This document shows, piece by piece, positions 6,661 to 30,487 of a stretch of DNA of 64,000 nt (the stretch's first letter is position 1; each line of letters begins with the position of its first letter). The DNA is from Arthrobacter sp. zg-Y820 (GTDB taxonomy: Bacteria; Actinomycetota; Actinomycetes; Actinomycetales; Micrococcaceae). The stretch spans positions 744,001 to 808,000 of the forward strand of contig NZ_CP126247.1 of the NCBI RefSeq assembly GCF_030142155.1, in the 5' to 3' direction. Made by a program: the position numbers and the translations under genes. A model generated the notes under the pieces. It saw only the letters and a list, made by a program, of their open reading frames with translations, was not told where the DNA came from and searched no databases.

Positions 6661-7953
6661 ATGGTGAGTAGGACAGAAGGCAGCCCATCTGCGGCAGCTA
6701 AACCAATCAGCACCTTTCGAATTATTGGCGCCGCATGTGTCGGGAACGCGTTGGAATGGTATGACATTGCTATTTATAGTTTTTTTGCCGTATACATTTC
6801 TCGGGTGTTTTTTCCATCAGAGGACCCGGCATTTTCGCTTGTCCTCGCCTTAGGGACGTTCGCAGTTTCTTTCCTCATCCGGCCGGTGGGAGCCCTTGTC
6901 CTGGGCTCGTACGCCGATCGGGTTGGGCGCAAGCCCGCGCTAACGCTGTCCCTTGGTCTGATGGTGGTGGGTACACTGCTCATCTGCGTTATGCCGTCCT
7001 ACGCATCCATCGGTGTGCTGGCTCCGATCGGCATCCTTGTCGCACGGCTCATCCAAGGATTCGCGGCAGGGGGCGAGTTTGGCAGTGCCACTGCGATGAT
7101 GGTTGAGCACCTACCGGGACGCCGTGGATTCGCGGCAAGTTGGCAGTTTACGAGCCAGGCCATGGCGTCGCTGATGGCAGCAAGTATCGGGACCATCTTG
7201 ACTATTTCATTGAGTGCGGAACAAATCGAATCATGGGGTTTTCGCATACCATTTTTATTTGGACTGCTTGTCGGGCCGGCGGGTCTTTATATTCGACGAC
7301 ACGTGCCAGAAACGCCAGAGGCGATTATTCGCTTGGAAAATGATGTTCCTAACAAGCCGATCCGAACAATACTTCGTGAGCAGAAGTTGATTGTTCTGCT
7401 CACTATTGGAGTGCTTGCGGTCACTACGTGCCTGAACTACATGATTACGTACATTCCTACATATGCCATCGCAACACTGAAACTGCCGGATTCCAGCGGA
7501 TTTGTTGCAACGTTAGTGGGTGGTTGCGTTCTGCTCTTGGTCACACCATTCTCGGGTCACTTCTCCGATAAGGTGGGCCAGCTGAGGATAATGATACCGG
7601 CGGCCGGGGCTGTATTGATTCTCATTTACCCAATGTTTGCTTTCATGGTTGCCGTTCCTGCACTAAGTGTGCTTCTTATCGTGGTTTTCCTTATGGCTCT
7701 ATTGAAGGCTTGTTATTTTGGGCCGATGGGTGCTGTCATGGCATCCCTATTTCCGGCGGAGACCCGAGCTACCGGAATGGCAGTTGGCTACAATATTGGG
7801 GTTACCATATTCGGCGGCTTTACCCCCTTGATTGCTACGCTGCTAATCGATAGGACAGGAAACGATATGGCGCCGAGTTTTTGGGTTATCTTCGCTGCGA
7901 TTGTCAGTCTGGTGTCCATGCTCACCATCTGGAAAAAGCTGGGCCTGCGTTAG
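6661..7953 (+). CDS. MHS-family MFS transporter (metabolite:H+ symporter)
   Basis: A 430-aa proton symporter of the metabolite:H+ symporter family (KgtP, ProP, ShiA relatives). Helix 1 carries the family signature GNALEWYDIAIYSFFAVY (29-46), and motif A is GSYADRVGRK (82-91). About 12 membrane segments are visible. It is translationally close to the M20 peptidase (two-base gap), so the substrate is likely a peptide or acylated compound that the peptidase splits. The sequence is AT-rich for this window: bases 6781-6840 contain 26 G/C of 60, and a TTA leucine codon is at 6850-6852. This supports recent acquisition. Confidence 0.88.
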   Translation: MVSRTEGSPSAAAKPISTFRIIGAACVGNALEWYDIAIYSFFAVYISRVFFPSEDPAFSLVLALGTFAVSFLIRPVGALVLGSYADRVGRKPALTLSLGLMVVGTLLICVMPSYASIGVLAPIGILVARLIQGFAAGGEFGSATAMMVEHLPGRRGFAASWQFTSQAMASLMAASIGTILTISLSAEQIESWGFRIPFLFGLLVGPAGLYIRRHVPETPEAIIRLENDVPNKPIRTILREQKLIVLLTIGVLAVTTCLNYMITYIPTYAIATLKLPDSSGFVATLVGGCVLLLVTPFSGHFSDKVGQLRIMIPAAGAVLILIYPMFAFMVAVPALSVLLIVVFLMALLKACYFGPMGAVMASLFPAETRATGMAVGYNIGVTIFGGFTPLIATLLIDRTGNDMAPSFWVIFAAIVSLVSMLTIWKKLGLR

Positions 7954-12845: not shown

Positions 12846-13517
12846 ATGGCCCTTACGGATGACGCGATAACCAAGATCAAGGACATGATCATCGGCGGAG
12901 AGCTGTCCCCGGGGGACCGGCTGCCGCCCGAGAAGGAACTCAGCGAGCAATTGGGTCTGTCCCGCAACTCGCTGCGGGAAGCGGTCAAGGCGTTGGAAGC
13001 CGTCCGGGTATTGGACGTCCGGCGAGGCGACGGCACATACGTCACCAGCCTTGAGCCTCGGCTGCTGCAGGAATCCACCGCGTTCATGGTGGACCTGCAT
13101 TCGGACACCTCGCTGGTGGAGCTCTTCGAAGTCCGGCGCATCCTGGAATCCTCGGCTGCAGGCATGGCGGCCAGACGGATCACCCAAGCGGAGCTGGCCG
13201 GATTGGAGGCGGACATCGCAGGCGTGGACGCGGGATCCGTGGATGACCTCATCGAGCATGACCTGCGGTTCCACGAGAGCATTGCCGACGCCGCGGGCAA
13301 CGGCTACCTCTGCGGGCTGCTTTCAGGCCTGAACAGTCGAACGGTCCGGGCACGGATCTGGCGCGGCCTCACAGAGCAGGGCGCGGTGGAACGCACTCTG
13401 GCGGAGCACAGGAGCATCGTCGCGGCCCTGCGGTCGGGGGACGCAGAATTGGCGCGCGCCGCCACCATGCTGCACGTGAGCGGCGTGGAACAGTGGGTCA
13501 AGGAGGCGCTCGGCTGA
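12846..13517 (+). CDS. FCD-domain GntR regulator, probable L-fucose pathway repressor
   Basis: A 223-aa FadR-subfamily regulator. The winged HTH is at residues 1-70 (LPPEKELSEQLGLSRNSLREAVKALE, then the wing VRRGDGTYV). An all-helical FCD effector domain follows, with the metal-binding pattern D and H in EHDLRFHESIADAAGN and a later AEHRSIVAAL. It converges on the fucose catabolic operon and ends at a shared terminator (13551-13584). FCD proteins of this type usually sense a sugar acid of the adjacent pathway, here plausibly L-fuconate or KDF. A likely target is the inverted repeat at 20455-20480. Both the effector and the target are inference. Confidence 0.88.
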   Translation: MALTDDAITKIKDMIIGGELSPGDRLPPEKELSEQLGLSRNSLREAVKALEAVRVLDVRRGDGTYVTSLEPRLLQESTAFMVDLHSDTSLVELFEVRRILESSAAGMAARRITQAELAGLEADIAGVDAGSVDDLIEHDLRFHESIADAAGNGYLCGLLSGLNSRTVRARIWRGLTEQGAVERTLAEHRSIVAALRSGDAELARAATMLHVSGVEQWVKEALG

Positions 13518-20625: not shown

Positions 20626-23445
20626 CTACCGCGTCGCCTCCGCCAGATACTCGAGCACGTGCCGGTAGGTGTGGCCGGTGGCCTTGGACATGCCGATCTC
20701 GCAGGTCCGGTTCACCGAGGCGTAGGCAGCGAACTCGCGCTCGTTGATTTCCGCCGCCTGCCGGTCGGTGGCCGAGTCCGTCAGCTCCGGATGCAGCAGC
20801 CCGCGGTCGCCGGCAAACGCGCAGCAGCCCCAGCTCTGCGGCACGAACACCTCGTCCGCCACCGCATCGGCCACGGCGTGCAGCGCCTCGTTGGCGCCAA
20901 GCTGGGTGGACGAGCAGGTGGGATGCAGTGCCATCGACGGCAGCTTCGCCGTCACGGCCAGCTGCGGCAGCACCGCGTCCCGCACGAACTCGACCGAATC
21001 GACGAACTGCAGCCCCGGGTAATCCGGGCTTTCCCCGGCCAGCCGCTTCATGGTGTCCAGACCCTCCGTGCAGGACGCGGCGTCGCAGACCACCGGCAGT
21101 GCCCCGCCGCCGGTGGCTTCCCACAGGTTGGCCAGCACGCGTTCGGTCATCACCGAGTAGCCCTTGGCGAAACCCTTGGACTTCCAGGGCGTTCCGCAGC
21201 ACAGCTCGCCGATGCCGTTCGGGATGCGCACGCCCACCCCGGCGCGGCCGCACAGTTCCAGGAAGGCTGCGGACACGCCGTCGCCGGTGCCGGCCGGACC
21301 AAACATGGTGCCGATGCAGGCAGGGAAATACACGGCCACAGCGGCCGGATCCTCCAGCGGCCGCCGCTTTGAACCGCCGGCCGGCAGCACCGTGGCGTAG
21401 GCCGGAACGGTATCGCTGCCGGCAACGGCGCGCGCGACGGCGGTGGCCGCCTTGGGCAGCAGCGGCGGCATCGCCTTGGCCAGGCTGAGGGCCTTGCCGC
21501 CGGCCACGGTCACCGTGGACCAGTGCTCGGCAGCGGTCTTCCAGCCGATGTCGGCGACGGGATTGGCGTCCTCCTTGCGCAGCCGGCGGACCAGGTCTCC
21601 GGTGTTGATCAGGACCGGGCAGGCGGTGACGCACATGCCGTCGACGGCGCAGGTCTGGACGCCGTCGTAGTCGTAGTCCTTGCGCAGCTCCTTGGCCAGG
21701 GCCGCGTCGCCGCGGGCTTCGGCGGCGGCGATCTCGCGGCGCAGGACAATCCGCTGGCGCGGAGTGGTGGTCAGGTCCTTGCTGGGACAGACCGGTTCGC
21801 AGTAGCCGCACTCCACGCAGCGGTCCACTTCCGCCTCCACCGTGGGCGCCACCTTGAGGTTCTCGATGTAGGCCAGCGGGTCTTCATTGATGAGCACGCC
21901 GGGGTTGAGCAGATTCGGCGGATCGACCAGGGACTTGAGCTCGCACATCACCGCGTACAGTTCATCGCCGTACTGGCGGCGGACAAATGCGGCCATGATC
22001 CGGCCGGTGCCGTGCTCGGCCTTGAGCGAGCCGCCGTTGCCCAGCACCAGGTCAACCATTTCCTCGGTGAACGCCTGATAGCGGGCAAGCTCCACCGGAT
22101 CGTCGAAGCGTTCGTTGAGCATGAAGTGGACGTTGCCGTCCTTGGCGTGGCCGAAGATGACCGAATCGCGGTAGTGGTGTTCGGTGAAGAGCCGGGACAG
22201 CTCCCCGCAGGTGGCCGCCAGGGAGGGGACCGGCACCACGATGTCCTCGAGCAGGGCATTGGTTCCGGACGGGCGGGCGCCGGCCACCGTGGTGTACAGG
22301 CCCTTGCGCAGGTGCCACATGGCGGCCCGGTCCTTCGCGACCGACGTCATGGCGAACGGGGCGGCCAAGGGAAGGGACTCATAGAGTGCCCGCGAGTTCT
22401 CCCGCTTCTCCGCCAGCTCCTCGGCGGTGCGGGCCTGGTGCTCCACCAGGAGGGCGGCGTGGTCGGAGATCTGCAGCTCGCGCAGCTCCGGGGGAGCGGT
22501 CGGGTCGGCGGCGGCCACGCGCAGCGACGTCGAATCCATCAGCTCAATCGTGGCCAGTCCGGAGGCGACCAGTTCCGGCAGGGCGCTGGCGGCGCGGTCC
22601 AGCGAGTCAAAAAACATCAGCCCGGTGGCCACCTTGGGCAGCGCCGGAACCGTCCGGAACGTCGCTTCGGCCACGAAGCCCAGCGTGCCTTCGCTGCCGA
22701 CCATCAGATGGGTGAGGATGTCCAGCGGGCTCTCGTAGTCCAGGAAGGAGTTGAGCCCGTAGCCCATGGTGTTCTTCATGGAGAACAGCCGCTCGATGGT
22801 GGCCACTGAATGCGGGTTGGCAACGATCCGGCCGCGCAGCCGCAGCAGCCCCTCGACGAGCGCCGGTTCCAGGGTGCGCAGCTTGGTTTCGGCGTCGGGC
22901 GCTGCCGTATCGAGGACCGTGCCAGAGGGCAGGACCAGGGCCATGGACTCGATGGTCTGGTAGGTGTTGAACTCGGTGCCGCAGGCCATGCCGGAGGAAT
23001 TGTTGGCGACGACGCCGCCGATGGTGCAGGCGATTTCCGACGCCGGATCGGGCCCGAGCTTGTAGCCGTGCGCGGCCAGCCGGGAGTTCACGGCGCGCAC
23101 CGTGGCTCCGGGCTGCACGCGGACCCGGGCACCGCCGTCGAGCACCTCGATGCCGCGGAAGTGCTGGCGGGTATCGATCAGGAGGCTGTCGCTCTGGCTT
23201 TGGCCGGAGAGGGAGGTGCCGCCGGAGCGGAAGGTGGCAGGGATGCCCAGCTTCCGGCTGCGGCTCAGCAGGGCGGCGACCTCCTCCGCCGTGCGCGGCG
23301 TCGCCACGGCCTCAGGGATCATCAGATAGTGGGAAGCGTCGTGCGCCATTTTGCGCCGGTCGATTTCCCGGGTGCTGATGTGTTCGGTGCCGAGGTCGGC
23401 GACGGAGGTCGCTGACGGGACGGGGGCTTCCGTGTGAAGGTTCAT
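20626..23445 (-). CDS. FAD-linked, iron-sulfur D-lactate dehydrogenase (GlcD-GlpC-like fusion)
   Basis: A 939-aa respiratory 2-hydroxyacid dehydrogenase, most likely oxidising D-lactate with electron transfer to quinone. Residues 1-250 hold the PCMH FAD domain (TFRSGGTSLSGQSQSD, IGGVVANNSSGMACGT). The FAD-oxidase C domain follows (HAKDGNVHFMLN, EHGTGRIM). Next come two 4Fe-4S clusters (CVECGYCEPVCPS and CAVDGMCVTACPV), then a CCG-type domain (FPACIGTMFG, CCGTPWKSKG, HPTCSSTQ, CCAFAGDRG). ATG 23445 is preferred to the TTG at 23490, which has no ribosome site. The perfect TGGTCAGACCA palindrome at 23521 ties it to the lactate regulon. Glycolate or another hydroxyacid cannot be ruled out. Confidence 0.88.
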   Translation of the reverse strand: MNLHTEAPVPSATSVADLGTEHISTREIDRRKMAHDASHYLMIPEAVATPRTAEEVAALLSRSRKLGIPATFRSGGTSLSGQSQSDSLLIDTRQHFRGIEVLDGGARVRVQPGATVRAVNSRLAAHGYKLGPDPASEIACTIGGVVANNSSGMACGTEFNTYQTIESMALVLPSGTVLDTAAPDAETKLRTLEPALVEGLLRLRGRIVANPHSVATIERLFSMKNTMGYGLNSFLDYESPLDILTHLMVGSEGTLGFVAEATFRTVPALPKVATGLMFFDSLDRAASALPELVASGLATIELMDSTSLRVAAADPTAPPELRELQISDHAALLVEHQARTAEELAEKRENSRALYESLPLAAPFAMTSVAKDRAAMWHLRKGLYTTVAGARPSGTNALLEDIVVPVPSLAATCGELSRLFTEHHYRDSVIFGHAKDGNVHFMLNERFDDPVELARYQAFTEEMVDLVLGNGGSLKAEHGTGRIMAAFVRRQYGDELYAVMCELKSLVDPPNLLNPGVLINEDPLAYIENLKVAPTVEAEVDRCVECGYCEPVCPSKDLTTTPRQRIVLRREIAAAEARGDAALAKELRKDYDYDGVQTCAVDGMCVTACPVLINTGDLVRRLRKEDANPVADIGWKTAAEHWSTVTVAGGKALSLAKAMPPLLPKAATAVARAVAGSDTVPAYATVLPAGGSKRRPLEDPAAVAVYFPACIGTMFGPAGTGDGVSAAFLELCGRAGVGVRIPNGIGELCCGTPWKSKGFAKGYSVMTERVLANLWEATGGGALPVVCDAASCTEGLDTMKRLAGESPDYPGLQFVDSVEFVRDAVLPQLAVTAKLPSMALHPTCSSTQLGANEALHAVADAVADEVFVPQSWGCCAFAGDRGLLHPELTDSATDRQAAEINEREFAAYASVNRTCEIGMSKATGHTYRHVLEYLAEATR

Positions 23446-23520
23446 TTTTCGATCCAACCGTTCCAGGGAGCTGCGGTGCTCCGCCTCCAAATGTAGGCCT
23501 GATCACGCCCCGGCGAAAGT

Positions 23521-23531
23521 TGGTCAGACCA
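23521..23531. promoter_or_regulatory. TGGTCAGACCA operator upstream of the D-lactate dehydrogenase
   Basis: An 11-bp perfect palindrome (TGGTC and GACCA around a central A), 76 bases upstream of the ATG at 23445. The same 11 bases occur twice in the lctP/lutA divergent region. TGGT-N-ACCA half-sites are the known target type of FCD-domain GntR proteins such as LldR and FadR. Confidence 0.8.
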
Positions 23532-23590
23532 CATGAAGGGGCGATGCAGCTCCTTCAGCCGGATTTGGAGGACTTACCCGAGTAGCGCGG

Positions 23591-24103
23591 CTACCGGATC
23601 CCGCGGTCCGCCAGCAGCTTTTCCAGCCGCTCCTCCAGCAGCTCGAGCGCGGCGGCCACGGTGGAGTGGATGACGGTTTCCGGATCCCCCTCGAAGAACC
23701 GTTCAATGACGTCGGGGTGCTCCTGGTTGGCGGCGGTCAGGCCGAAAAAGACGGTGCCGGGCTCCTGGTCGTCCTGCGGTTCGGGGCCGCCGGAGCCGGT
23801 GACCGCCAGGACCAGGTCGGCGTCCAGCAGCTTGGCCGTGCCCGCGGCCATCTGGGCCGCCGATTCCTCCGACACCACTGCCTCGGCCGTCACGCCCAGG
23901 ACCGTGCGCTTAACGGAGGTGGCGTAGGCGGTGAGCCCGCCGAGGAACCAGTCCGACGACGACGGCGCGGCCCCCAGGAACGAGGCCAGCATCCCGCTGG
24001 TCAGGGATTCCGAAACCCCGATGGTCACGCCGGTGCCCTGGATGCGCTCGGCAATGCGCTCAGCAGTTTCGGTGGAAACCGTGTCCTGGCTGGAAGTGGA
24101 CAA
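23591..24103 (-). CDS. CinA C-terminal domain protein (PncC-like NMN amidohydrolase)
   Basis: A 170-aa stand-alone CinA C-domain, the PncC type that deamidates nicotinamide mononucleotide in NAD recycling. Characteristic segments are GVSESLTSGMLASFLG, the LGGLTAYATSVKRTVLGV strand, VVSEESAAQMAAG, and TGSGGPEPQDDQEPGTVFFGL. The TTG at 24103 is the likely start because AGGAGAA stands six bases upstream. It lies between the D-lactate dehydrogenase and the LldR-like gene but carries no operator of that set, so it is probably a bystander. Confidence 0.87.
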   Translation of the reverse strand: MSTSSQDTVSTETAERIAERIQGTGVTIGVSESLTSGMLASFLGAAPSSSDWFLGGLTAYATSVKRTVLGVTAEAVVSEESAAQMAAGTAKLLDADLVLAVTGSGGPEPQDDQEPGTVFFGLTAANQEHPDVIERFFEGDPETVIHSTVAAALELLEERLEKLLADRGIR

Positions 24104-24238
24104 GGACTTCTCCTGTTCGTCGGTGCTTTGTGATGACCGAGATTTTATCAGGCTGCTTACCAGTTTTAGGTGCGTTGGAGCCGGGTCGGAGCGGCTGCGC
24201 CTGGGTGGGGCCGGCGGCCGGTTTGCAGCGGGTCGGAG

Positions 24239-24988
24239 CTAGGCGGAGCCGGCGGATTTTTCGTCAGCGGAGTCCTCGTCGGGAATCTGCGCATAGAACC
24301 ACTCGATGTGCTCGCGCAGCAGGCGGGCGGCGTCGTCGCCCCGGCGGTTTGCCACCGCCTCGTGGATGCCGTGGTGCTGGGCCTGCAGCTGGGTCATGAC
24401 GGCGGGCCAGTTTTCCATGCCGTCGACGGCGTTCTTGACGTAACCGCTGATGGCTCCGCTCAGGGACGCCATCATGGTTTCGATGACGGCGTTGCCGGCC
24501 AGCGAGCTGAGCTCCACATGGAACTGGGCGTCCAGCAGGTGGAAGGCTTCGCGCTCAATATCCGGGGCATCCATGGCCTCCAGCAGTGCGGCGGCCCGGG
24601 CCAATGCGGCGTCCGCGGCCTCCGACGGCGGCCGGGCGGCGGCGGTGGTGGCCGCCCAGGTTTCCAGCAGGACACGGGTCTGCACGATGTCCGCCACCGG
24701 CAGCCGGCTGCTGGCCATGTGCAGGCGCAGGGCGGAGGACAACCCAGCCGAAGGTTCGGAGATGATGATGGCGCCGGACTTCGGCCCGGACCCGGAGGAG
24801 GACCTCAGTACGCCCATGGCGTCCAGGATGCGGATGCCTTCCCGGACGGAGGCACGGGAAATGCCGTAGGTTTCGGCCAGCGTCCGCTCGCCGGGCAGCT
24901 GGTCGCCCAGTGCGATGGCGCCGGAGCGGAGGTCGGCTTCAATGTTTTCCAGCAGCAGGTCGTAGCTGCGGCGCGGGTGCTCTGTCAC
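24239..24988 (-). CDS. FCD-domain GntR regulator, probable LldR of the lactate regulon
   Basis: A 249-aa FadR-type regulator with the HTH in LPGERTLAETYGISRASVREGIRILDAMGVL. An FCD domain follows with metal ligands expected in HLLDAQFHVELSSLAGN and HGIHEAVANRR. It lies between the D-lactate dehydrogenase and lactate permease genes, the usual place for LldR/LutR. It is therefore the best candidate to bind the TGGTCAGACCA sites, with lactate as effector. The GTG at 24988 is chosen because GGATGGAG precedes it and the protein then opens on the HTH. The frame upstream to 25132 is a GC-rich run of unlikely residues. No TGGTCAGACCA site was seen before its own start. Confidence 0.87.
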   Translation of the reverse strand: MTEHPRRSYDLLLENIEADLRSGAIALGDQLPGERTLAETYGISRASVREGIRILDAMGVLRSSSGSGPKSGAIIISEPSAGLSSALRLHMASSRLPVADIVQTRVLLETWAATTAAARPPSEAADAALARAAALLEAMDAPDIEREAFHLLDAQFHVELSSLAGNAVIETMMASLSGAISGYVKNAVDGMENWPAVMTQLQAQHHGIHEAVANRRGDDAARLLREHIEWFYAQIPDEDSADEKSAGSA

Positions 24989-25116
24989 CGCTCCATCCTG
25001 CCATGCGCCGATGCGGTGGGGTGCCGGGGTGTCGGTGCCGGTGCCGGGACGCCGATGCGGCAGGGCGGCCGGGTGCGCTCCTTCAGTCATGCTGGCACCG
25101 GCGGAGCCGAGGAGCT

Positions 25117-25151
25117 GCGGAAAATCGGCCACCTCGGGGTGAATCGTCCGG
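25117..25151. repeat. 34-bp direct repeat, copy 1
   Basis: Begins GCGGAAAATCGGCC and ends CGGGGTGAATCGTCCG. It agrees with the copy at 25467-25500 at 30 of 34 positions, with three of the four changes in the middle. The two copies bracket the word-repeat cluster between them. Confidence 0.75.
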
Positions 25152-25218
25152 GTGCCTTCCGCTCGCCGGCGAACCTTGCGCCATCATCTCCAGAACCCGG
25201 CCCTCGCGCTTGTACTGG

Positions 25219-25356
25219 ATCTCTCGTGCAGATAATGCACTGACCGGGGCTCCGCCGGAGTCTCTCGTGCAGATAATGCATTGAAAAGGAGTCATTTCGG
25301 AGAAAGGAGGCCCTGATCTGCACGAGAGATTTCGCCAGACTGCATTATCTGCACGA
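25219..25356. repeat. Intergenic word repeat, two direct and two inverted copies
   Basis: The word TCTCGTGCAGATAATGCA is perfect at 25222-25239 and 25263-25280. Inverted copies follow: ATCTGCACGAGAGAT at 25316-25330 (left half of the word) and TGCATTATCTGCACGA at 25341-25356 (right part). The flanks between copies are unrelated. No T-run follows, and the spacing is too irregular for a CRISPR array. Confidence 0.8.
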
Positions 25357-25466
25357 AGGATGCGCGCCGGCCGCCGCCACCGCCGAGGGACGCCGGCCGC
25401 CACCATCGCCGTGGGGCAGCGGCCGCCACCAGAATCGGGCGGGCGCCGTTTTCCGCGGGGATAACC

Positions 25467-25500
25467 CCGGAAAATCGGCCGCACCGGGGTGAATCGTCCG
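25467..25500. repeat. 34-bp direct repeat, copy 2
   Basis: Second copy of the repeat at 25117-25151, beginning CCGGAAAATCGGCC. It ends three bases before the 25503 hairpin. Confidence 0.75.
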
Positions 25501-25502
25501 GT

Positions 25503-25563
25503 TGGGGAATCTGCCGCCGGTCCGCAGCGGCAGCAGATTCCAAAACGGCAGCAGATCCCCAGA
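25503..25563. repeat. Hairpin and tandem word repeat after lctP
   Basis: A GGAATCTGCCGCC arm (25506-25518) pairs with GGCAGCAGATTCC (25529-25541) with one mismatch. The second arm belongs to two tandem 18-base units, CGGCAGCAGATTCCAAAA (25528-25545) and CGGCAGCAGATCCCCAGA (25546-25563). It stands 22 bases past the lctP stop and may terminate that transcript. Confidence 0.7.
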
Positions 25564-25584
25564 AAGCGGCGGAGCCGGCAGGAC

Positions 25585-27330
25585 CTACGGCAGCATCCAG
25601 CCCAGGATCGGCGTGGACTGCAGGTACACCAGGGTGCACAGCACCAGCAGCAGGCCCAGGCTCCAGCCGACGACCTTGCGCAGCAGCACCGATTCCTGGC
25701 CGTCCAGCTTCACGGCGGTCACGGCGATGGCGAGGTTCTGCGGGCTGATCAGCTTGCCCACGACGCCGCCGGAGGTGTTGGCAGCCACCAGCAGGTTCGG
25801 ATCAATTCCGGCTTCGATGCCGGCGGTCTGCTGCAGGCGGGCGAAGAGGGCGTTGGCGGAAGTGTCGGAACCGGTGACGGCGGTGCCGATCCAGCCCAGC
25901 ACGGGGGAGAGGAACGCGAAGAACGCTCCGGTGCCGGCCAGCCAGGTGCCGATGGCCACGGTCTGTCCGGAGAAGTTCATGACGTAGGCCAGGGACAGCA
26001 CGGAGAGGATGGTCAGTCCGGCCCAGCGCATGTTCCAGATGGTCCGGAAGATCTCGGCCACACCGTTGCCCACGCTCATGACGTACCGGCCGCCGTCGTC
26101 GTACTTGGCGTAGACCGCGCTCACGATCAGGCCGGTGAACAGCAGCAGCGTTCCGGGGCTGGAAAGCCAGTTGAACGTGTAGATGGTGGAGGAGACGGGC
26201 TCGCCGGAGGCATCCAGGAGCCGGTCGTGCAGCCAGGGCCACGGAACCTTGATGTCGGTGGAGGCCAGGAGGGCGGGAATGTCCGCGCCCCACTTCCACA
26301 GCTTGGCGATGCCGAAAATCAGGATCACCAGGAAGTAGGGGAACAGGGCCAGCAGCGTGCGGGAGCGGGTGAGGGAGTTGCCGTCCCGAACCGCAGCGGC
26401 GGCACCGCGGCCGGCGCCGGACTGCGAGCCGGCCGATCCGGTGACCGAGCCGGTGACCGAGGCGGCGAGGGCGGGCAGGCCCATGCGCTCGCGGGCGGCT
26501 TCCCGGCCGCGGGGCTGCCAGAACCGCAGGAAGACGACGGCAGCACCGAGGCCGGCCAGGGCTGCCACGATGTCGGTGAGTTCGTAGGAGAAGAAGGTCG
26601 AGCAGAGGACCTGGGCCGTGGCAAACGCGACGCCGGTAATGACGGCGGCGGGCCAGGTGTCCCGCACGCCGCGGCGGCCGTCGAGGATGAAGACCAGGAT
26701 TAGCGGGACGAAGATGGCCAGCAGCGGTGCCTGGCGGCCCACGATGGTGCCGATGTGGTCGGCGTCCAGACCGGTCAGCGAGGCTGCGGTGGTGATCGGA
26801 ATGGCCATGGCGCCAAAGGCCACGGGGGCGGTGTTGGCCACCAGCACGGCGGCGGCTGCCTTGAGCGGCTTGATGCCCAGGGCCACCAGCATGGTGGCGG
26901 TAATGGCCACCGGTGCGCCGAATCCGGCCAGGGCTTCCAGCAGGCCGCCGAAGCAGAAGGCGACCAGGATGGCCTGCACGCGCACATCCCCGCCGCCGAT
27001 CACGTCGAACACCCGGCGCAGGTCCTCGAACCGGCCGCTGAGCACGGTGATCTGGTAGAGCCAGATGGCCATGATGACGATCCACAGCACCGGGAACGCG
27101 CCGAAGACGGCACCCTGGGTGGCGGAGAGCGCCGCCAGTCCGGCCGGCATCTGGTAGGCGAAGACGGCGACGGCGAGGGCCACCAGCAGGGCGATTCCGC
27201 CCGCGAGGTGGGCCTTGACCTTGACGTAGGCCAGCAGCACAAAGAAGGTCAGCAGTGGCACCAGGGCCACCAACGCCGAAACGGCAACACTATCGAGCAC
27301 TGGATCGGTGCTGGGGATGAATGACTCCAC
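25585..27330 (-). CDS. lctP: L-lactate permease
   Basis: Lactate:H+ symporter of the LctP family, 581 aa with about 13-14 membrane segments. Typical stretches are GRFEDLRRVFDVIGGGDVRVQAILVAFCFGGLLEALAGFGAPVAI (core helices), VAFGAMAIPITTAASLTG, MNFSGQTVAIG, FLSPVLGWIGTAVTGSDTSANALF and the final NTSGGVVGKLISPQNLAIA. The GTG at 27330 is preceded by GGAGG. It is divergent from lutABC, and the shared region holds two perfect TGGTCAGACCA sites and one CRP-type site. Uptake of lactate and its oxidation are thus under one control. A second paralogue at 45657 lacks that operator. Confidence 0.93.
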   Translation of the reverse strand: MESFIPSTDPVLDSVAVSALVALVPLLTFFVLLAYVKVKAHLAGGIALLVALAVAVFAYQMPAGLAALSATQGAVFGAFPVLWIVIMAIWLYQITVLSGRFEDLRRVFDVIGGGDVRVQAILVAFCFGGLLEALAGFGAPVAITATMLVALGIKPLKAAAAVLVANTAPVAFGAMAIPITTAASLTGLDADHIGTIVGRQAPLLAIFVPLILVFILDGRRGVRDTWPAAVITGVAFATAQVLCSTFFSYELTDIVAALAGLGAAVVFLRFWQPRGREAARERMGLPALAASVTGSVTGSAGSQSGAGRGAAAAVRDGNSLTRSRTLLALFPYFLVILIFGIAKLWKWGADIPALLASTDIKVPWPWLHDRLLDASGEPVSSTIYTFNWLSSPGTLLLFTGLIVSAVYAKYDDGGRYVMSVGNGVAEIFRTIWNMRWAGLTILSVLSLAYVMNFSGQTVAIGTWLAGTGAFFAFLSPVLGWIGTAVTGSDTSANALFARLQQTAGIEAGIDPNLLVAANTSGGVVGKLISPQNLAIAVTAVKLDGQESVLLRKVVGWSLGLLLVLCTLVYLQSTPILGWMLP

Positions 27331-27360
27331 TGGGTCCTCCGCGTAGTTCTGGACAGGGCA

Positions 27361-27385
27361 TGGTCAGGCCACAGTGGTCAGACCA
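27361..27385. promoter_or_regulatory. Double TGGTC-GACCA operator in front of lctP
   Basis: A perfect TGGTCAGACCA is at 27375-27385, and a near-copy TGGTCAGGCCA (one change) is at 27361-27371, 14 bases apart. On the minus strand a TAGACT hexamer (27397-27392) lies just before the perfect copy and may be the lctP -10 element. A repressor bound here would cover the transcription start. Confidence 0.75.
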
Positions 27386-27415
27386 TTGGCGAGTCTAGCG
27401 CAGAACTCCGATTTC

Positions 27416-27431
27416 TGTGATGGTAGTCACC
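27416..27431. promoter_or_regulatory. CRP/GlxR-type dyad between lctP and lutA
   Basis: TGTGATGGTAGTCACC contains GTGA-N6-TCAC, with the outer T of the consensus on the left. It lies roughly midway between the two divergent promoters and partly over the expected lctP -35 position, so it could serve both directions. Confidence 0.6.
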
Positions 27432-27474
27432 AGCACCGAGGGCCCGGATGTGACAGGCCCAACATGTTCTACTA

Positions 27475-27485
27475 TGGTCAGACCA
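27475..27485. promoter_or_regulatory. TGGTCAGACCA operator in front of lutA
   Basis: A perfect copy exactly 100 bases from the one at 27375. It overlaps the last base of a TACTAT hexamer (27470-27475) that is a good -10 element for lutA, and it is 35 bases from the lutA start. This is a classical repressor position. Confidence 0.8.
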
Positions 27486-27519: not shown

Positions 27520-28320
27520 ATGAGAATCGCTCTATTCGCCACCTGCATCGTGGATGCCATGTATCCGCGCACCGCCCGGGCCACCGTGGACATTCTGGAG
27601 CGGCTGGGCCACGAAGTCGTGTTCCCCTCCGGTCAGGCCTGCTGCGGGCAGATGCATGTGAACTCCGGCTACCTGCCCGAAGCCGTGCCGGTGGTCCGCA
27701 ACCACATCGAGGCCTTCGAGTCCCAGGAGTACGACGTCGCCGTCGCACCTTCGGGCTCCTGCGTCGCCTCCGTCAAGCACCAGCATCCGATGGTCGCCCG
27801 GTCCTGCGGCGATGCCAACCTGGCGGCCCGCGCCGAGGCGGTTGGCGCCAAGACCTACGAGCTCTCCGCACTGCTCACCGACGTCCTGGGCGTCACCGAT
27901 GCCGCCGCGCAGCTGGGGTCCTGGTTTCCGCACAACGTCACCTATCACCCCAGTTGCCACGGCATGCGCCTGCTGCGGTTGGGCGACCGGCAGCTGAACC
28001 TGCTGCAGAGCGTGGAGGGCATCACCGTGGCGCCCCTGCCGCAGGCCGACCAGTGCTGCGGCTTCGGCGGCACCTTCTCCATGAAAAACGCCGACGTCTC
28101 CACCGCGATGCTCGAGGACAAGGCGGCAAACATCAAGGCCACCGGCGCTGACCTGTGCTCCGGCGGCGACGCCTCCTGCCTGATGCACATCGGCGGCGGG
28201 CTGTCCCGGCAGGGCAGCGGCGTCTCCACCCTGCACTTTGCTGAAATCCTTGCCAGCACTCGGGACAATCCGGTGTCCGTCACCGGTGACGTCCTGGTCG
28301 GCGGAAAGGCCTCCCGATGA
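27520..28320 (+). CDS. lutA: LutA, L-lactate utilisation Fe-S subunit
   Basis: First subunit of the LutABC complex, which oxidises L-lactate to pyruvate. It has 266 aa with two CCG (cysteine-rich) domains: FPSGQACCGQMHVNSGY in the first half, HPSCHGMRLLRLG and CCGFGGTFSMKNADVS in the second, ending SCLMHIGGG. AAAGG precedes the ATG. The stop overlaps lutB by four bases (ATGA). The gene lies directly under a TGGTCAGACCA operator. The set is intact, with no frameshift. Confidence 0.93.
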   Translation: MRIALFATCIVDAMYPRTARATVDILERLGHEVVFPSGQACCGQMHVNSGYLPEAVPVVRNHIEAFESQEYDVAVAPSGSCVASVKHQHPMVARSCGDANLAARAEAVGAKTYELSALLTDVLGVTDAAAQLGSWFPHNVTYHPSCHGMRLLRLGDRQLNLLQSVEGITVAPLPQADQCCGFGGTFSMKNADVSTAMLEDKAANIKATGADLCSGGDASCLMHIGGGLSRQGSGVSTLHFAEILASTRDNPVSVTGDVLVGGKASR

Positions 28321-29855
28321 GCACCACGTACCTGGGCATGCCCACCCTCCCGGTCTTCGGGCAGGGCAACCTCAACGCCGTCGAGCCCTTTCCCCGGGCC
28401 GCCAAACGCGAACTGGGCAACAGCCAGCTGCGCGCCAACCTGGGCCACGCCACGCACACCATCCGCGACAAGCGGCTGCGCGTGGTCGGAGAGCTGCCGG
28501 ACTGGGAGGACCTGCGCAACGCCGGCAGCGCCACCAAGGAAGCGGTCATGGCCCAGCTGCCCGAACTGCTGGAGCAGTTCGAGAAGAACTTCACCGCCCG
28601 CGGCGGCATCATCCACTGGGCCCGCGACGCAGCCGAGGCCAACGAAATTGTCCGCGACCTCATCCGGGAGCAGGGCGTGGACGAGGTGGTCAAGGTCAAG
28701 TCCATGGCCACCCAGGAAATCGGGCTGAACGAATACCTGGAAGAACAGGGGATCGCCGCGTTCGAAACGGACCTCGCCGAACTGATCGTCCAGCTCGACC
28801 ATGACAAGCCCAGCCACATCCTCGTGCCGGCCATCCACAAGAACCGCACCCAGGTCCGGGACATCTTCCTGCGCGAAATGCCAGGGGTCGATCCGGACCT
28901 CACCGACAACCCCGCCAAGCTGGCCGAGGCTGCGCGGGCGCACCTGCGCCGCAAGTTCCTCTCCGCCAAGGTTGCCGTCTCCGGCGCCAATTTCGCGATT
29001 GCCGACGCCGGCACCCTCGCCGTCGTCGAATCCGAGGGCAACGGGCGGATGTGCCTGACGCTGCCCGAAACCCTGATCACCGTGATGGGCGTGGAGAAGC
29101 TGCTGCCGTCCTGGCAGGACCTTGAGGTGTTCATGCAGCTGCTGCCGCGCTCCTCCACGGGCGAGCGGATGAATCCGTACACCTCCCTGTGGACCGGCGT
29201 CACCGAAGGCGACGGACCGCAGAACGTGCACCTGGTGCTGCTGGACAACGGCCGCAGCGCCGCGCTGGCGGATGAAATGGGCCGCTCGGCGCTGCACTGC
29301 ATCCGCTGCTCGGCCTGCATGAACGTGTGCCCGGTCTACGAGCGCACCGGCGGCCATGCCTACGGCTCCACCTATCCGGGACCGATCGGCGCGATCCTCT
29401 CACCGCTGATGACGGGCATCGTCTCCGAGGAGAACAACTCCCTGCCGTACGCGTCCTCGCTCTGCGGCGCCTGCTACGACGCCTGCCCGGTGAAGATCAA
29501 CATTCCCGAAATCCTGGTGCACCTGCGCGCGGAGGACGTGGACAGCAAGCGCGGCAAGAAGAAGCTGCCCACCCAGATGGACCTGCTGATGAAGGGCGCC
29601 TCCTGGGCGTTCTCCTCCGGCAAGCACCTGGGCCTGCTGGAAAAGGGCCTGCCGCTGGGCCGGATCGCCGCCGGCCGGAAGAAGAAGATCACCAAGCTGC
29701 CCGGCATCGCCGCCGGCTGGACCCAGAGCCGGGACATTCCGGCCCCGCCGGCCTCGTCCTTCCGTGACTGGTGGGCCAAGGAGCACGAAACATCAGCAGC
29801 CGGCGGCGCGGACGCTGCGGCGCAAACCATCACCAAGACTGAGGATCAGGCATGA
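28317..29855 (+). CDS. lutB: LutB, L-lactate utilisation Fe-S subunit
   Basis: Central 512-aa subunit of LutABC. The N-terminal half is the LutB/LutC-like domain (RGGIIHWARDAAEANEIV, then SKAKVAVSGANFAIADAGT-like strand, GNGRMCLTLPE). The C-terminal third holds two 4Fe-4S ferredoxin clusters, CIRCSACMNVCPVY and CGACYDACPVKI, followed by basic linker helices. ATGA overlaps at both ends show that lutA, lutB and lutC are one translationally coupled operon. The length and cluster spacing are those of working family members. Confidence 0.93.
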   Translation: MSTTYLGMPTLPVFGQGNLNAVEPFPRAAKRELGNSQLRANLGHATHTIRDKRLRVVGELPDWEDLRNAGSATKEAVMAQLPELLEQFEKNFTARGGIIHWARDAAEANEIVRDLIREQGVDEVVKVKSMATQEIGLNEYLEEQGIAAFETDLAELIVQLDHDKPSHILVPAIHKNRTQVRDIFLREMPGVDPDLTDNPAKLAEAARAHLRRKFLSAKVAVSGANFAIADAGTLAVVESEGNGRMCLTLPETLITVMGVEKLLPSWQDLEVFMQLLPRSSTGERMNPYTSLWTGVTEGDGPQNVHLVLLDNGRSAALADEMGRSALHCIRCSACMNVCPVYERTGGHAYGSTYPGPIGAILSPLMTGIVSEENNSLPYASSLCGACYDACPVKINIPEILVHLRAEDVDSKRGKKKLPTQMDLLMKGASWAFSSGKHLGLLEKGLPLGRIAAGRKKKITKLPGIAAGWTQSRDIPAPPASSFRDWWAKEHETSAAGGADAAAQTITKTEDQA

Positions 29856-30487
29856 GCGCACGGGCAGACATCCTGGAGCGGCTGCGGTCGGCGCTGCGCG
29901 ACAGCCCGGCCGTCCCGGAGATTCCGCGGACCTACCGCGAGGACTCCGGCATGAGCGCCGAGGAACGCATCGAGATGCTGGTGGACCGGCTGGTGGACTA
30001 CAAGGCCGGCGTCACGGTGGTGGACCGGGCCGGGTTGGCGCCGCGGATTGCCGAACTGCTGAGCGGCGCCGCCAGCTATGTGGTTCCGGCGGGGATCGAC
30101 GCCGGCTGGCTGGCCGCCGCCGAAGCCGCCGCGCCAGGCCGCCGACGCACCGACGACGCTGCCGCGCCGCTGAGCGTGGCGCAGCTGGACGCGGTGGACG
30201 CCGTCGTCACCGGCAGTGCCGTCTCGGTGGCCGAAACCGGCACGATCATCCTGGACGGCAGTCCCAACCAGGGCCGCCGCGCCATCACTCTGGTGCCCGA
30301 CCATCACATCTGCGTGGTGGGAGCCGACGACGTCGCCGGCATCCTTCCGGAAGCCCTGCGCCGGCTGGACGGCACGCGGCCGCTGACCTGGATCAGCGGG
30401 CCCAGCGCCACCTCCGATATTGAGCTCGAACGCGTGGAAGGCGTGCACGGACCGCGGAACCTGGACGTGGTCATCGTCCGGTCCTGA
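29852..30487 (+). CDS. lutC: LutC, L-lactate utilisation subunit
   Basis: Third subunit of LutABC, 211 aa, LUD domain only and no Fe-S cluster. Family stretches are the middle SVAETGTIILDGSPNQGRRA and LVPDHHICVVGADDV, and the closing TWISGPSATSDIELERVEGVHGPRNLDVVIV. It starts inside the lutB stop (ATGA). Its last 184 bases are also covered, on the other strand, by the tail of the alpha/beta hydrolase frame, an unusual convergent overlap. Confidence 0.93.
   Translation: MSARADILERLRSALRDSPAVPEIPRTYREDSGMSAEERIEMLVDRLVDYKAGVTVVDRAGLAPRIAELLSGAASYVVPAGIDAGWLAAAEAAAPGRRRTDDAAAPLSVAQLDAVDAVVTGSAVSVAETGTIILDGSPNQGRRAITLVPDHHICVVGADDVAGILPEALRRLDGTRPLTWISGPSATSDIELERVEGVHGPRNLDVVIVRS

Follow-up and report, generated by a model that had tools for sequence, protein, structure and literature searches.

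In Corynebacterium glutamicum, LldR is described as a FadR-type repressor that has L-lactate as its effector and acts on the cg3226-lldD operon, whose products are an L-lactate dehydrogenase and a putative lactate permease; expression of dld is given as constitutive (PMC3022706). For Escherichia coli, the LldR box is given as AAnTGGTCnGACCAnTT, with two boxes per target region (PMC10272880). In Pseudomonas aeruginosa, LldR represses an operon that encodes a permease together with dehydrogenases for L- and D-lactate and is induced by both isomers (PMC11389411), and for Shewanella LldR* is listed with a predicted lactate utilization regulon (PMC3223726). Here we describe a locus in a stretch of 64,000 nucleotides (nt) from Arthrobacter sp. 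zg-Y820 (contig NZ_CP126247.1, positions 744,001 to 808,000; the whole stretch is called the window), where identical copies of a short palindrome lie upstream of genes for lactate uptake and oxidation, and a gene for a GntR regulator is encoded among them at 24239-24988. We consider it highly probable from the sequence evidence that the palindromes are operators of this LldR-type regulator. A predicted site containing the same 11-mer is in print for MSMEG_0596 (PMC2018728). A literature search by title and abstract start, with most subscription journals outside its coverage, returned nothing on this regulon in Micrococcaceae.

The exact 11-mer palindrome TGGTCAGACCA occurs three times in the window: at 23521-23531, upstream of the D-lactate dehydrogenase gene (dld); at 27375-27385, upstream of lctP and just downstream of the predicted lctP -10 element; and at 27475-27485, overlapping the predicted lutA -10 element. 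A version with one mismatch, TGGTCAGGCCA, lies at 27361-27371 and makes up the degenerate tandem half nearer the lctP start, with a 14-nt period to the next copy that is kept in relatives. All four positions had been named in the original prediction, made from the letters of the window, and were recovered by pattern search, as was the overlap with the lutA -10 TACTAT, where the last T of 27470-27475 is common to both elements. At up to one mismatch, the window contains nine matches to the 11-mer on the two strands, compared with a mean of 1.03 and a maximum of 5 in 100 shuffles; an order-1 model with the composition of the window predicts, when both strands are counted, 0.026 exact copies in 64 kb and 1.54 in the genome. 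Random scatter of the 11-mer in the genome had been set beforehand as the sign that would speak against an operator. In the whole genome (3,792,570 bases), there are three exact copies, each at one of these lactate promoters, and the backwards-read control has one. By that standard the operator reading is not refuted. In number, the palindrome is ordinary: 19 forward matches at up to one mismatch vs 25 in the control, 28 sites of the looser pattern TGGTNNNACCA vs 108 backwards, and three copies of the strict core TGGTCNGACCA vs five reversed. What is unusual is that the copies crowd together at lactate promoters in a span of 4 kb, and the signal is their location and conservation, not their count. 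The remaining 25 of the 28 TGGTNNNACCA sites include 14 called coding and 11 called non-coding by a crude filter of open frame and third-position GC, which is rough, as a site at window position 7538 was called non-coding yet lies inside an open reading frame at 6661-7953. None of these 25 has the CnG core, and no additional regulon member is claimed.

Conservation was followed across 149 genomes of the family, with a regulator match in 116 (E up to 1e-35) and a lutA match in 84, at 86 places (E up to 1e-60), of which 85 were fetched and G067 was left out. The looser pattern TGGTNNNACCA was found 193 times in the 85 stretches (49 times reversed), and because a single recurring sequence, TGGTAGAACCA/TGGTTCTACCA, often inside lctP by position, accounts for 28 of the 193, we used the strict core instead. 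Within 900 nt upstream of lutA, TGGTCNGACCA is present at 68 of the 73 places whose fetched stretch includes the regulator and at two of the 12 whose stretch does not, and the reversed pattern at none of the 85. The Fisher test for this association (p=5.6e-8) treats genomes as independent and is therefore only indicative. The two site-bearing exceptions are L136, a stretch of only 2,441 bases, and L253, where the regulator lies on the far side of the lut genes. Over the whole length of the 85 stretches the strict core occurs 153 times, reversed 0 times, and regulator and site are found together in 18 of the 20 genera in which lutA was matched at this threshold. In four genera (g1, g6, g25 and g29), lutA loci with and without the regulator both occur; the site is present there in 13 of 14 of the former and in 0 of 9 of the latter. 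A tandem operator upstream of lctP was also seen in L054, L055 and L216, which have the regulator beside lctP and no lutA in the stretch.

An alignment of eight divergent lutA-lctP regions from the own clade has invariant letters in 30 of 33 operator columns, vs 67 of 156 others (p=2e-7). Comparison by hand of TGGTCNGACCA sites in own-genus genomes placed 18 of 24 at the lactate locus in the six that bear the regulator (own genome 3/3, G146 3/3, G117 4/7, G100 2/3, G058 3/4, G032 3/4) and none of three in the two without a regulator match (G080 0/1, G131 0/2), and the unrelated background amounts to zero to three copies per genome in these eight. Of 22 named loci, the majority of them from Arthrobacter (12) and Sinomonas (6), 15 hold the strict core. 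That the palindromes are chance or structural repeats devoid of a regulatory role would fit the lack of numerical enrichment of any pattern form in the own genome (28 vs 108, 3 vs 5), but the invariant operator columns, the 153 copies against none reversed and the conserved place at the lutA -10 all speak against it, and as conservation already contradicts this explanation we give it next to no weight.

The regulator itself (24239-24988, reverse strand, 249 amino acids) exceeds the cut-offs of PF00392 (50.4 bits) and PF07729 (66.8 bits), the GntR and FCD domains. Its first match among solved structures is 2di3, over residues 8-235 (E=2.4e-42, 148 bits), followed by a match at 6.4e-12 and 49 bits, and it is this match that settles the family; 2di3 is identified as C. 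glutamicum LldR (PMC4494728). In the reverse direction, a search with the 2di3 residues placed this regulator first among the genome's nine FCD regulators (37%, 5.9e-33; the second gave 1.5e-18). We take CGL2915 to be the name of the same protein. Read by eye, the D and H of a DAxFH motif and two more H align with the ligand and metal pocket of the 2di3 FCD domain, where these Asp and His residues would serve as metal ligands. The operator core TGGTCnGACCA, in three exact copies, equals the published E. coli LldR box. The expectation that TGGT/ACCA dyads would suit a GntR protein with an FCD domain, encoded between its targets, is supported by a FadR-subfamily GntR regulator that is LldR-like by its best solved match.

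It could be argued that another of the nine FCD regulators, one of which has its FCD domain at 13119-13481 of the window, binds the palindromes, and that the regulator between the targets is a bystander; the FadR subfamily does have a common TKGT/ACMA consensus with a 3-nt gap (PMC4494728). We regard this as quite unlikely, given that the site accompanies the gene of this very regulator at lutA across the family and that, of the nine, C. glutamicum LldR matches this one best. Direct autoregulation was rejected for the own clade, whose loci carry no TGGTNNNACCA in the 150 nt preceding the regulator gene. In a sister group of regulators (L226-L245 minus L234, 43-52% identity), TGGTNNNACCA lies within 150 nt upstream of the regulator's own gene in 19 of 19, which suggests autoregulation and other targets there. 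The sites of this group are often paired, 23-38 nt apart.

Several observations weigh against the assignment of the palindromes to an LldR-type regulator. The regulator scores 87.1 of the 311 bits required by the NCBIfam equivalog PRK10421 (E. coli-type LldR), and for this reason is best filed as LldR-like of the Corynebacterium type, not as the E. coli-type equivalog. In addition to the excess of the reversed control over TGGTCNGACCA in the own genome, the strict core occurs in 147 of the 149 family genomes, often at a count no higher than that of the control. Seven of the 22 named loci have no TGGTNNNACCA outside the regulator gene, and five of the 73 regulator-bearing lutA loci are without a strict site: L138 carries TGGTTAGACCA and L198 carries TGGTCGAACCA in its place, and L178, L200 and L205 have no TGGTNNNACCA within 300 nt of lutA. 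For regulator matches away from lutA, 40 chosen stretches were examined (L253, near a lutA, was among them); TGGTNNNACCA occurs outside the regulator gene in 28 of them and the strict core in 14, whereas 12 are without any TGGTNNNACCA there. Most of these 40 homologues are more distant, have other neighbours and may regulate other genes. The 12 include six genomes of g25 (L217-L222), which have a homologue (55-59%) away from lutA with no site nearby, meaning that their regulator is elsewhere in the genome, not absent. L052 and L053, two of the seven named loci above, have homologues of 64-66% identity beside lctP and dld relatives and no TGGTNNNACCA in 14.7 kb; there the operator may have changed or the target may be different. 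A scan of 13 loci around site-less homologues for chosen one-mismatch forms gave nothing consistent. Finally, some lutA relatives lacking the regulator stand in other gene settings, so that loss of regulator and loss of operator do not form a clean pair; with some of these loci beside apparent sugar genes, the lutA contrast mixes gene setting with presence of the regulator. Two such lutA relatives, with neighbours named by eye from translations, are L154, after a rhamnulokinase-like gene, and L149, which adjoins genes for a DeoR-like regulator and for sugar transport; the lut genes are apparently used in sugar pathways in both.

The placement of the operators relative to predicted promoters indicates how the LldR-like regulator could act. 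The lutA -10 TACTAT (27470..27475, forward strand) was read from the sequence and is conserved; a consensus promoter scan chose differently, pairing GTGACA at 27450 with TATGGT ending at 27478. An exact site lies less than 130 nt upstream of lutA in 58 family loci, and in 48 of these the operator opens with the T that closes a TAnnnT hexamer. On the opposite strand, the lctP -10 TAGACT (27392..27397) is predicted from the conserved block TCTAGCGCA in eight sequences. Tandem pairs with a period of 14 or 15 nt, one copy exact and the other with up to two mismatches, were counted in the 900 nt upstream of lutA, where they lie as a rule on the lctP side, and are present in 45 of 85 loci; pairs with both copies exact number 20 at 14 nt and seven at 15 nt. 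The weak half, a GG variant, differs by lineage, being the lctP-near copy in the window (27361) and the opposite one in L051 and L066. Measured from the predicted -10, the tandem pair would extend over the beginning of the lctP transcript, from about +1 to +25, a placement that suits a repressor. Two dimers bound 14 nt apart would have about a third of a helix turn between them, and we infer paired binding.

The last two exact copies are, as had been pointed out, 100 bases apart in the window. The figure itself stands; any meaning attached to it does not, because the spacing is not conserved and has no helical phase. A looping or phasing signal was rejected: across 40 lutA-lctP regions of the family the spacing ranges from 58 to 228 nt, and R is 0.25 over all values and 0.06 over distinct values. 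Between the divergent promoters, a CRP/GlxR-like sequence, TGTGATGGTAGTCACC, was noticed at 27416-27431, 18 nt from the predicted lctP -10, a distance that is kept in own-clade sequences as judged by eye. By the CRP consensus it may be a CRP site. L202 and L203 have TGTGA-N6-TCAC sites just upstream of the predicted lutA -10, possibly a catabolite-control overlay.

Considering these positions together, we infer binding and repression by the regulator with lactate as its effector. Without lactate, one regulator dimer would occupy the lutA -10 and two neighbouring dimers, 14 nt apart, would cover the beginning of the lctP transcript, so that both divergent promoters would be closed; at dld, another dimer would bind immediately upstream of the -35 region. 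Once imported by LctP, lactate would bind the FCD domain and release the regulator from DNA, upon which LutABC for L-lactate oxidation, LctP for uptake and Dld for D-lactate oxidation would be switched on together.

The dld operator was followed in the own clade in ten genomes (own, G146, G100, G117, G032, G058, L047, L048, L051 and L066; overlapping handles were counted once, with L067 = G117, L049 = G058 and L050 = G032, and also L059 = G084). It is present in all ten, exact in five and as the one-mismatch form TGGCCTGACCA in the other five. The distance from its end to the predicted dld -10, TACATT at 23490..23495 on the reverse strand, is 25 nt in nine of the ten and 19 nt in L275 (G058), as measured by script in five genomes and by eye in L271, L047, L051 and L066. 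With its centre at about -43, the operator stands in a classic activator position, and the regulator might activate at least dld, with the lutA and lctP sites remaining repressor-like. The conserved 25-nt spacing and a poor -35 (TTTCGC) would agree with activation, as would the description of E. coli LldR as an activator of several genes (PMC10272880), but a dimer at -43 could equally block the -35, the dld -10 is itself predicted, and the operator at dld in Sinomonas, which overlaps a -10-like hexamer (L059 and L060, by eye), has the position of a repressor. On balance we hold activation at dld to be a lesser possibility, and repression of all three promoters by the LldR-like regulator is retained as the working model.

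Outside the clade, the D-lactate branch takes other forms. The operator was sought at the best-scoring 30 of 64 dld places, and within these 30 no exact TGGTCNGACCA was present in the upstream region of any of the 24 dld loci outside the genus; one-mismatch sites were found at four loci (L281, L285, L292 and L293). The Sinomonas dld loci were taken from other stretches. In L059 and L060, dld lies between lutA and lctP; further sites occur near dld in L183 and L185 of this genus (g7), and L199 has dld without a site. In two other genera (L135 and L139), dld lies behind the regulator gene in the same orientation and lacks its own strict operator, which suggests an operon; L139 has TGGTAGAACCA about 100 nt upstream of dld, probably inside the regulator gene. 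The original prediction that a single regulator links D- and L-lactate oxidation accordingly holds for the own clade, with the operator at dld in all ten genomes, and does not extend to the family. As far as these sequences tell, control of L-lactate genes is the broad part of the regulon and control of D-lactate oxidation is confined to particular lineages, for which either repeated gain or loss may account. We tentatively suggest, as a reading that is possible rather than likely, that control of dld was gained repeatedly in one family, by an operator upstream of the -35 in Arthrobacter (possibly for activation), through one that covers the -10 in Sinomonas and, in two genera, through a position of dld downstream of the regulator gene, and that lctP is under paired dimers on a tandem of 14-15 nt whose weaker half switches sides by lineage.

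The genes around the operators are those of a lactate locus, the regulator gene being linked to lctP, lutABC and the dld candidate. The lactate permease gene lctP (25585..27330, reverse strand) matches PF02652 (E=1.4e-131) and exceeds the TIGR00795 cut-off. Divergent from it, lutA (27520..28320, forward strand; PF02754) encodes a CCG protein of L-lactate oxidation, lutB (28317..29855, forward strand) an iron-sulfur (Fe-S)/LUD protein above the TIGR00273 cut-off (457 of 445 bits), and lutC (29852..30487, forward strand; PF02589) a LUD-domain protein for which the NCBIfam search gave no match; CCG protein, LutB-type protein and LUD protein follow in the LutABC order. The dld candidate (20626..23445, reverse strand, 939 amino acids) combines in a single chain a flavin adenine dinucleotide (FAD) oxidase half and an Fe-S/CCG half (FAD_binding_4, FAD-oxidase_C, Fer4_8 and CCG). 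This FAD/Fe-S/CCG architecture is reported to be that of a D-lactate dehydrogenase type, and the Shewanella lactate regulon reportedly contains a large Fe-S D-lactate dehydrogenase with lut-type genes. The candidate remains under the NCBIfam cut-offs for GlcD (196 of 568) and YdiJ (166 of 1350); among solved structures, a probable D-lactate dehydrogenase ranks first (E=2.5e-30), closely followed by a glycolate oxidase and, lower down, by a 2-hydroxyglutarate enzyme. Similarity and gene context point to D-lactate as the probable substrate.

A CinA-C-like gene (23591-24103) sits between the regulator gene and dld and, among the named relatives, was found only in L048. In the gap between lctP and the regulator gene, 25224-25356, there are three copies of TCGTGCAGATAATGCA, two direct and one inverted, and CTCGTGCAGATAATGCA, if one mismatch is allowed, has 15 copies in the genome (0 in the control), with distances of 41 or 77 bp frequent among them. 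The repeat is absent from this gap in all seven relatives checked, and it looks like a dispersed intergenic repeat.

Together, these data provide a precise, testable set of operators for the use of lactate, covering Arthrobacter and 18 of the 20 sampled genera where lutA was matched, and the broad L-lactate core next to a lineage-specific D-lactate branch makes the system a compact case of regulon growth. Its regulator has C. glutamicum LldR as the best solved match; the enzyme described there is LldD and dld is constitutive, whereas the Arthrobacter locus uses LutABC and has an operator at dld. The E. coli LldR box has an 11-nt core identical to the Arthrobacter operator, showing that a box defined in E. 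coli is kept in actinobacteria; its outer AA/TT arms are not kept, and the 14-nt tandem at lctP is unlike the E. coli arrangement of boxes. In P. aeruginosa, lldPDE is one operon with LldD, in contrast to the three promoters, separate operators and LutABC of Arthrobacter, and for Shewanella the regulator of the lactate utilization system is described as having undergone non-orthologous replacement (PMC3223726). The operators reported here are most probably of the known LldR type, with a core already in print for E. coli, and it is the extension to D-lactate that is specific to the lineage.

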